The position numbers and the translations under genes were made by a program. This document shows, one piece after another, positions 27,698 through 61,268 of a stretch of 64,000 bases of DNA; within the stretch, counting starts at the first letter, position 1; each line of letters starts with the position of its first letter. The stretch covers positions 1 through 64,000 of the forward strand of contig JAJQIK010000045.1 in assembly GCA_021199255.1 (NCBI GenBank), given 5' to 3'. The DNA comes from Clostridiales bacterium. Lineage in GTDB: Bacteria; Bacillota; Clostridia; Lachnospirales; Lachnospiraceae. Below the pieces are notes generated by a model, which worked only from the letters and a program-made list of their open reading frames with translations, was not told the DNA's origin and made no database searches.

Positions 27698-27770
27698 GCG
27701 CGATTAGCTCAGTTGGTAGAGCACCTGACTCTTAATCAGGGTGTCCAGGGTTCGAGCCCCTGATCGCGCA
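27698..27770 (+). tRNA. tRNA-Lys (CUU anticodon)
   Basis: This is a 73-nt cloverleaf: acceptor GCGCGAT/ATCGCGC with discriminator A, D arm TAGCTCAGTTGGTAGAGC, anticodon loop CTCTTAA giving CTT, and T arm CCAGGGTTCGAGCCCCTG. CCA is not encoded. It reads AAG codons. Confidence 0.95.
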
Positions 27771-31922: not shown

Positions 31923-32106
31923 AACACCCTCCAAATTTCTAACCCATATTACCGCAGATTATCCCTAACTATATATTAGTTTAACATCTTAGTCTTTGAT
32001 TTGTAAGGCTTTTTGGAGTTTTGCCCTTATTTTCAGCATATTGCCAACAATGTAAGGACAGTTTTTTGTGAAATATCACAAGCAGTTTTTGTCTTAATCC
32101 GCCATA

Positions 32107-32268
32107 TTAATCCCCATTTCTGAGCAACTTGTTGCGAAGCGGCGGCGAGAAATCCGCGAAGGCGGTTTCTCGTCTGCCATCAGGGCTATTTGCTTTCGCT
32201 CAGAAACAAATAGCCAAATCCACTTCCAGAGGATTGTGAAAAATCAGCACATCAGTGTGATTTTTCAT
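32107..32268 (-). repeat. Multi-hairpin intergenic repeat, copy A (behind the CheC-like gene)
   Basis: This ~162-base element reads, on the minus strand, almost identically to plus-strand 60858-61027. In this orientation it contains: an AAAAATCA/TGATTTTT hairpin, CCTCTGGAAG, a GGCTATTTG/CAAATAGCC hairpin, GAGAAACCGC/GCGGATTTCTC, and GCAAC-AA-GTTGC. It begins one base past the stop codon of the gene it follows. The loop of the GGCTATTTG hairpin (TTTCTGAGCGAAAG) is the reverse complement of that in copy B. The rest of 31923-32106 holds the carD promoter region and a palindrome at 32066-32081. Confidence 0.9.
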
Positions 32269-32269
32269 A

Positions 32270-32872
32270 CTATTTAATACTGAAATGATCGCAGATAAAA
32301 CGGGTCTCTTTCATAGGATAGATACGAATCATAATTCCCTTTAATAAGCCCGGCGATTCAAAATGGCACACCACAAGCGCCATCTCATCTCCCGCAAAGG
32401 GAAGAAAATCTATCCGGTCGATATCTTCCGGCTTCTGGACAAACGTAGTCTTAGGCGGATTGATATCCACTGTTTTATGTATCATCTCCGTGAGTACGAT
32501 TGCGGACGCGCCCATCATCTGATTCATTACCTCCGCCACGCAGGACAAATGCATTTCATTCAGCTCACCTTCCGCGGCCACGCCGACGCCGCCCATCATA
32601 AGATCCATGATAATCTTGATGTCGTTTTCTTTCATCATCAATAGATTATTGCCGTCAAAGTCATCTTTAAAATCTATCTGGACCGTCACGCCGCCCATGC
32701 CAAATGCCGTCAGAATATTCTTGATATCGGCGCTGTTTACTACCTTGACCATGGGTACATGAATCTTAATCTCCTTGCCGATCATCATATTCAGCGCAGT
32801 CGCGGAATGTGCCATACAGATCTGAGATACTTCCGCCATTTTATCCTGATCTTTCGGTGTCAATGCTCCCAT
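32270..32872 (-). CDS. CheC/FliY-type phosphatase-domain protein
   Basis: This 200-residue protein resembles the CheC-like N-terminal domain of FliY. CheC phosphatases have two E-x-x-N sites. Here the second is intact: SCVAEVMN, with the Pro about 22 residues on at INPP. In the first the Asn is replaced (MAEVSQICMAH). The C-terminal FliN surface-presentation domain and the N-terminal FliM-like CheY-binding peptide of FliY are absent. It may dephosphorylate CheY-P or act as a scaffold; no other chemotaxis genes are adjacent. It follows an ABC gene's upstream region and ends at repeat copy A. Confidence 0.72.
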   Translation of the reverse strand: MGALTPKDQDKMAEVSQICMAHSATALNMMIGKEIKIHVPMVKVVNSADIKNILTAFGMGGVTVQIDFKDDFDGNNLLMMKENDIKIIMDLMMGGVGVAAEGELNEMHLSCVAEVMNQMMGASAIVLTEMIHKTVDINPPKTTFVQKPEDIDRIDFLPFAGDEMALVVCHFESPGLLKGIMIRIYPMKETRFICDHFSIK

Positions 32873-42068: not shown

Positions 42069-42140
42069 CGTTCCTTGGGGGAATCGAACCCTCAATTCGC
42101 CCTTAGGAGGGGCGTGTTATATCCATTTAACTAAAGGAAC
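42069..42140 (-). tRNA. tRNA-Arg (CCU anticodon)
   Basis: This is a 72-nt cloverleaf with acceptor GTTCCTT/AAGGAAC and discriminator G. The anticodon stem CGCCC/GGGCG has loop CTCCTAA, giving CCT. The T arm is GAGGG-TTCGATT-CCCCC, with one A-C mismatch. CCA is not encoded. It reads AGG. Its 3' half is duplicated at 41474-41506, marking it as an integration target. Confidence 0.93.
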
Positions 42141-60857: not shown

Positions 60858-61027
60858 TAGTGTTAAAAATCACATTGATATGCTGATTTTTAACAATCCT
60901 CTGGAAGAGGATTTGGCTATTTGTTGCTTTCGCTCAGAAACAAATAGCCCTGATGGCAGACGAGAAACCGCCTGCGCGGATTTCTCGCCGCCGCTTCGTA
61001 ACAAGTTGCTCAGAAATGGTGATTAAA
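60858..61027 (+). repeat. Multi-hairpin intergenic repeat, copy B (behind dnaN)
   Basis: This ~170-base element is nearly identical to the minus strand of 32107-32268. Hairpins in order: TTAAAAATCA/TGATTTTTAA; AATCCTCT-gga-AGAGGATT; GGCTATTTG/CAAATAGCC; GAGAAACCGC/GCGGATTTCTC; and a TAAC/GTTGC-containing end with GCTCAGAAATGG. It starts 28 bases past the dnaN stop and ends 32 bases before the S4-protein ATG, so it lies in dnaN sense. The third hairpin's loop (TTGCTTTCGCTCAGAAA) is inverted relative to copy A. It fills the whole 230-base gap. Confidence 0.92.
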
Positions 61028-61059: not shown

Positions 61060-61268
61060 ATGGAAATCATAACAATACGGGACGAATTTATCAAGCTTGG
61101 CCAGGCAATAAAATTAGCGGGACTTGTTGAATCGGGCGTGGACGCGAAGATCAGGATTCAGGAAGGTTTCGTGAAGGTGAACGGCGAAGTGGAATTGCAG
61201 CGCGGTAAAAAGATTTATCCGGGTGATGTAATAGAATTTGACGGACAACAGGTTAAGGTAGAAAACTG

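Follow-up and report, generated by a model that had tools for sequence, protein, structure and literature searches.

A family of small modular repeats of Lachnospiraceae that probably occupies translation-initiation regions, between the SD and the start codon

The window analysed here is a stretch of 64,000 nucleotides of a genome of Lachnospiraceae (contig JAJQIK010000045.1). It carries two copies of a hairpin-rich repeat, copy A on the minus strand and copy B on the plus strand. Copy A starts where a CheC-like gene ends, at its stop codon; a CarD-like gene lies about 170 nt further on. The sequence directly after its right end is ATG GCG GAT TAA. Copy B is flanked by a DNA polymerase III beta gene and by an S4-domain gene, which is followed by a RecF/RecN/SMC-type gene. 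The left triplet of this copy is GTT, and the start of the following gene is 34 nt away. Three tRNA genes (RF00005) are also present in the window, at 358-445, 27698-27770 and 42069-42140. The parts of the two copies are as follows.

32105..32272, minus strand: copy A, whole element (covariance-model ends 32108-32272)
32266..32268, minus strand: left NTG of copy A, an ATG; the TAG directly 5' of it terminates the CheC-like gene
32235..32269, minus strand: hairpin H1 of copy A, from structure and covariation
32217..32235, minus strand: hairpin H2 of copy A, optional, many copies of the family being without it
32184..32215, minus strand: hairpin H3 of copy A, with the loop in the usual orientation of the family
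32198..32206, minus strand: loop strand of the predicted long-range pairing of copy A, UUUCUGAGC
32141..32178, minus strand: hairpin H4 of copy A, from structure and covariation
32124..32135, minus strand: hairpin H5 of copy A, from structure and covariation
32117..32125, minus strand: right-end strand of the predicted long-range pairing of copy A, GCUCAGAAA
32112..32115, minus strand: putative element-borne Shine-Dalgarno sequence (SD) of copy A, GGGG within GGGGATTA, from the sequence and its position relative to starts
60858..61027, plus strand: copy B, whole element (covariance-model ends 60858-61025)
60861..60895, plus strand: hairpin H1 of copy B; pairs near its foot are altered on both sides relative to copy A
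60895..60913, plus strand: hairpin H2 of copy B
60915..60949, plus strand: hairpin H3 of copy B, inverted and with an additional TTG, the sole inverted loop in 142 copies
60955..60992, plus strand: hairpin H4 of copy B
60998..61009, plus strand: hairpin H5 of copy B
61018..61021, plus strand: weakened putative SD of copy B, GGTG (GGGG in copy A); the next gene starts at 61060

The initial annotation had described a two-copy repeat in which the central hairpin is flipped while its flanks stayed in register. The alignment of the two copies confirms the flip. To the left of the central hairpin they align over 57 nt without a gap, and to the right over 79 nt with a single gap at the extreme end. 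Without the TTG, H3 of copy B (35 nt) is the exact reverse complement of H3 of copy A (32 nt), and removal of any three bases never makes the two identical in the same orientation. With copy B as the query, BLAST recovered copy A at E = 1.2e-59, which excludes chance as the source of the match.

The repeat is not confined to these two copies. BLAST with copy B gave 77 matches in the 3.08 Mb source genome, many of which hit the same copies again, in antisense or in part. A typed pattern of the left hairpin, allowing up to three mismatches, gave 45 matches there, and its reversed control gave none. A covariance model was built from 18 copies, nine from the source genome and nine from other genomes. 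With 150 of 1175 first-look candidates scored, it found 80 matches in the source genome at E ≤ 0.01. Of these, 73 reached E ≤ 1e-3, and one or more of the 73 is antisense to another copy. The description as a two-copy repeat is thus true inside the window alone, since the genome has dozens of copies.

Within the genus, 59 of 77 genomes, the source genome included, have a model match at E ≤ 0.001; at most 40 candidates were scored per genome, so the per-genome counts are lower bounds. A family-wide draw gave matches in 28 of 200 genomes at E ≤ 1e-5 (at most 15 candidates scored in each). In a class-wide draw, three of 391 genomes matched at E ≤ 1e-6 (at most eight scored), namely the source genome, one genome of the same genus and one of the same family. 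At least 111 public genome stretches contain the 27-mer of the left hairpin. Among the 80 matches listed for it, most are titled Lachnospiraceae and some Acetatifactor, Roseburia, Clostridium or others; three are Bacillus sp. from one bin. The exact 27-mer of H1 had no match in viral contigs, and a distant blastn search with one copy as the query had none in plasmids and phages. Rfam release 15 gave no match over the element at the gathering score, either in the window with both copies or in nine divergent loci, and the matches obtained in five loci of the source genome at E up to 5 were all far below the gathering scores. A literature search found no paper on the repeat family; its coverage was partial, which makes this weak evidence of absence. 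Copies A and B apparently belong to a large and undescribed family of mobile repeats of gut Lachnospiraceae.

The element is modular and interspersed and is typically about 135-165 nt long. Read from 5' to 3', it consists of TAGTRTGAAAAATCA...TGATTTTTCA (H1), an optional AATCCTC..GAGGATT (H2) and H3, which occurs with alternative sequences. This is followed by TGATGGCAGA leading into H4, by H5, and finally by GCTCAGAAATGGGGATTA or a counterpart, where the SD is located. Modules are exchanged between copies. By eye, the left end reads TAGTRTGAAAA and the right end GGRGATTA. No terminal inverted repeats were seen by eye, and neither the bases nor the spacing are the same at the two junctions. 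No target-site duplication is evident at the empty sites that were read. The left triplet of 184 copies is GTG in 94, TTG in 44 and ATG in 25 (163 of 184 together), CTG in none and TAG in two, the remaining triplets being partly misregister of the search pattern. The two copies with TAG rather than NTG (L232 and L281) have a matching CTA in H1; the structure is kept there without a start codon, and NTG is therefore not indispensable. Copies also occur in tandem or beside remnants of others: in 26 of 184, the sequence to the left looks like another copy's right end.

The hairpins were compared across copies. In an alignment of 18 sequences, 95.0% of cells are paired and both sides have changed in 20 of 51 pairs, compared with 1 to 4 in slid controls. 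With 87 distinct sequences, the paired fraction is 96.7% of cells (35-47% in slid controls). Stem covariation had been proposed as a check on the hairpins, and it was found: compensatory changes on both sides occur in 40 of 44 pairs of this larger alignment, which was made to the covariance model and leans towards the structure, against a mean of 20.7 in shuffles and 9 to 22 in slid controls.

RNAalifold, unprompted, pairs the loop of H3 with the strand just upstream of the SD. Over 114 distinct combinations, the longest complement between loop and right end has a mean of 7.28, compared with 5.53 (sd 0.14) for permuted right ends; none of 5000 permutations was as high. The test used a distance filter, and one of 137 elements was dropped because it has no hairpin. 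A first test had given a mean of 5.51 against 4.45 for cross-pairs, the weaker result being due to right ends that were misplaced in several copies. Examples of loops matched to their own partners are CUGAGCGA with UCGCUCAG, CCGGAGCGU with ACGCUCCGG, GUCAGAGC with GCUCUGAC and GAGAACGC with GCGUUCUC. Pairing is poor (4 or less) in 15 of the 114 combinations, some of which stem from misplaced right ends. The long-range pairing replaces H3 in the minimum-energy folds of L184 and L002, and covers most of the SD as well in L002; it is not used in the minimum-energy folds of L022, copy A and copy B. These comparisons clearly support the predicted fold and SD-adjacent pairing as maintained by compensatory change.

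Against this background, the inverted hairpin of copy B could be examined in the family as a whole. Loop orientation was counted in 142 distinct copies of the fetched loci, anchored on H1 and on the core of H4. The script flagged one further copy as reverse (L220), seven as both and 14 as neither. The H2 module accounts for the reverse flag and the seven flags of both orientations, and reading the flagged rows by eye revealed no second inversion among the 142 copies. A reverse row from another genome in an earlier, narrower count was L130 read antisense. The initial annotation had proposed that the hairpin might invert in living cells and serve as a switch, and the exact inversion in copy B speaks for this idea. 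With both orientations sought, the inverted loop was found in copy B alone; a single orientation in all other copies is what the initial annotation had named as evidence against a switch. Moreover, the conserved pairing is lost in the inverted form, the longest complement between loop and right end being 10.5 in copy A and 4.0 in copy B. We regard a living switch as extremely improbable. The part of the proposal that fits is its account of the origin, a past inversion or template switch across the 9-nt arms. The inversion in copy B is a single past event that abolished the loop pairing, and it is history, not a switch.

The position of the element relative to genes is strikingly regular. Of 46 right ends in the source genome, one of them misplaced, 26 are followed by an ORF of at least 50 aa that starts exactly 2 nt after GGRGATTA; in one of these 26 cases the ORF is the leader of a tandem copy. 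We then considered the best model hit in 29 other genomes, taken from the 58 with a match. An ORF starts 1-3 nt behind it in 26 of 29 and at most 5 nt behind it in 28 of 29; the remaining one has an ATG at 2 nt and no ORF by script. Several of these hits are themselves among the sequences behind the model, but the model has no start codon. Model hits in 80 listed public contigs gave an ORF (at least 60 aa, shorter where the sequence ended) at 0-6 nt in 65 of 82, with 46 at exactly 2 nt, compared with 3 of 82 in a mirror control. The 82 are what is left of 88 hits once four cut at a contig end and two antisense hits are removed, and the 65 include at least one leader ORF that belongs to a tandem copy (L269). 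The downstream ORFs, read by eye, are of many kinds. No ORF starts close behind 17 of the 82 hits and 20 of the 46 right ends of the source genome. Copies A and B are in this class and look like decayed or displaced members of the family; in copy B, the GTT triplet, the GGTG and the distant gene start are further signs of decay.

Of 158 solitary copies, 119 have an SD-like tetramer in the window expected before the left end, compared with 21-30 in four windows further upstream, and its spacing peaks at 4-6 nt. A filled and an empty site can be compared directly at dxr. The site is filled in G039 and empty in the sister species G017; the flanks match at 95% and 89%, and 145 bases in the one stand against 10 in the other. 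A second comparison is provided by L011 and the homologous L205. The two are alike as far as AAGGAGGA and become alike again at the ATG, so that the SD is retained at the left side and the start codon at the right side. The position of the ORFs, the host SD at the left end and the filled and empty dxr sites together indicate that the element lodges between SD and start codon, splitting the two, and would supply a new SD at a usable spacing.

Other sites were compared with relatives. For eight host genes of the source genome, including the neighbour of copy B, 40 upstream regions were retrieved from eight relatives, and wherever the gene could be located we read the 130 nt before it. None of the relatives read has element-like sequence in this stretch at six of the eight sites. 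The region upstream of the S4-domain gene, at the site of copy B, is without the element in five of five relatives read. There is a divergent stretch of the same style before gatB in G045, and a related hairpin stretch before rlmD in G039 and G017. The 153 elements in the fetched loci, which are a sample of loci and not a whole-genome comparison, include three pairs with similar downstream proteins in which both members carry the element. One is an asnB pair, and another, nearly identical, comes from G039 and G017. The third is gltB-like; its members share the old SD but differ in the sequence further upstream. At the start of the gene that we take to be asnB, the element is found in two species, at L190 (G036) and at L059/L081 (the source genome). 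In the source genome, the gene has GTG as its start codon and is preceded by two elements in tandem. The asnB elements are possibly independent insertions at the same gene.

Strong covariation, a pairing next to the SD and a fixed place before start codons would all suit an ordinary cis-regulatory RNA leader, riboswitch-like or protein-binding, that controls a regulon. Translational control leaders such as riboswitches are structured 5' leaders with pairing beside the SD, and the element resembles them in both respects. It differs from them in being present or absent between sister species, in preceding many unrelated genes and in forming tandem copies. The many kinds of downstream ORFs, the relatives without the element at six of eight sites and the sister species without the dxr copy argue against a regulon, and at the sites compared, conservation before orthologous genes across species was not observed. 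The count of just three pairs among 153 elements also points this way, though weakly because loci were sampled and not genomes. We consider a regulatory leader of this kind unlikely.

The old SD and the NTG at the left end raise another question, whether the element is a translational attenuator. Translation from the old SD would then yield a leader peptide, coupled to the gene, as the essential part. The old SD is indeed present, the left triplets are mostly start codons with CTG absent, and the leader frame stops at -1 or +4 from the gene start in 28 of 110 copies. In 61 of 110 copies, frame 0 stays open at least as far as the gene start, compared with 0 and 1 for the other frames, a large difference that arises because fixed stops lie inside H1. 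The fairer test is made past H1, where the leader frame is open in just 70 of 138 copies and the others in 45 and 52. The leader frame is thus weakly favoured, and on these numbers the leader peptide was rejected as a conserved function. The commonest loop in the source genome, TTTCTGAGCGAAAG (14 of 34 scored), brings in an in-frame TGA, as in copy A, and a conserved peptide is not visible. An attenuator built on a leader peptide appears quite unlikely to us.

We also searched for an enzyme that could move the element and found none. Y1 transposase had no match in the source genome, which has about 70 copies of the element, and a match in 30 of the 77 genus genomes. It is present in one (G076) of the eight genomes with more than 30 element matches. 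RRXRR (PF14239) had no match in the source genome and was matched in four of the 77 genomes, three of them over the cut-off. Y1 transposase and IscB/IsrB were both rejected as the mobiliser, since neither matched in the source genome. An autonomous copy with a gene between its ends was not seen by eye among 181 H1 hits. The 40 of these without the core motif nearby are, by eye, divergent, truncated or contig-edge copies. REP and PATE repeats are palindromic, non-coding and interspersed, and are mobilised by Y1 transposases. The element is likewise palindromic, non-coding and interspersed. It differs from REP and PATE in the lack of a Y1 match in the genome, in its several hairpins in fixed order, in its long-range pairing and in its fixed relation to SD and start.

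A related possibility is a non-autonomous derivative of IS200/IS605 type or of IscB/IsrB (HEARO), with NTG as the target-adjacent motif. The element is rich in hairpins, lacks inverted termini and has NTG at both junctions. The Rfam library that was scanned presumably includes HEARO, and the element has no match in it. Neither Y1 nor RRXRR was matched in the source genome, and RRXRR is found in four of 77 genomes though the repeat is in 59. Start codons explain the NTG at both ends equally well as a HEARO-type motif, and the motif alone cannot account for the restriction to start codons. Recognition of NTG-type motifs by IsrB enzymes, as described in one study (PMC9581776), favours such a derivative; on balance, we find it very unlikely. 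The element is like HEARO/IsrB RNAs in being a structured RNA in mobile DNA, and the NTG near its insertion may correspond to their NTG-type motif. It is unlike them in having no Rfam match, no RRXRR match in the genome and a restriction to start codons, and it is shorter than the IsrB RNA (roughly 300 nt; PMC9581776).

The nearest known kind in style are the BOX elements of Streptococcus pneumoniae. Both are small modular repeats with predicted stem-loops, many copies and combinations of modules, clustered or nested in places (PMC3049150). The present element is short, dispersed and found in dozens of copies, as MITE/BOX-like elements are. BOX elements are described there as having terminal inverted repeats and target duplications, as over-represented between convergent genes and as parasitic (PMC3049150). 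Compared by description alone, the element is unlike BOX in lying 5' of start codons, supplying an SD, showing no evident target duplication and having a long-range pairing backed by covariation.

We propose that the repeats probably form one family of small, modular and interspersed elements of Lachnospiraceae, whose place is the translation-initiation region, in the gap between SD and start codon. The proposal builds on what was observed of the number of copies, their structure, the covarying loop pairing, the position and the empty sites. The right end (consensus GGRGATTA) would serve as the new SD, in most cases two bases ahead of the old start codon, and the left end would give the old SD an NTG (GTG, TTG or ATG) at normal spacing. 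The transcript is predicted to fold into H1, the optional H2, H3, H4 and H5, with the loop of H3 pairing with the strand immediately 5' of the new SD. We infer that the family is mobile, though probably not autonomous, and has spread by transposition or some other form of copying, and that the element may survive because each insertion restores a ribosome-binding site. The pairing of loop and right end may tune access to the new SD, and ribosomes that start at the old SD may carry translation into the element and then re-initiate.

The 2-nt peak and the SD on the left speak for insertion that is directed at the gap; selection for SD spacing gives much the same picture. A bolder form of the proposal, which we hold tentatively and with some doubt, is a mobile element that inserts specifically between SD and start codon. 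It would be transparent to translation as introns are to splicing, and the pseudoknot would govern the hand-over. Such insertion would be tolerated since the old SD gains a start codon and the old start codon gains a new SD.

In gut Lachnospiraceae, this one repeat family appears to have rebuilt the translation start of dozens of genes per genome. If insertion is truly directed at the gap between SD and start codon, mobile elements would have a targeting principle that is new. Should insertion only be tolerated there, the filled and empty start sites would form a natural set for measuring the effects of the leader and of re-initiation on protein output. Gene calling may also be misled by the family, through short leader ORFs and wrong starts.

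Some copies depart from the usual architecture. Four short derivatives (L142, L279, L284 and L304) have little beyond H1 and the right end with its SD, with ATG directly after, and a single hairpin plus an SD may form the minimal unit. Upstream of an rlmD-like gene in G039 and G017 (L113 and L120), we observed a different hairpin stretch, TTGAAAAATCAGAGATTTTTCAACC with a GCAAGTTTGTGC..GCACAAACTCGC hairpin, which is perhaps a cousin family. A group II intron (RF02005) lies at L218:5974-6195, in the same fetched stretch as one copy of the element.
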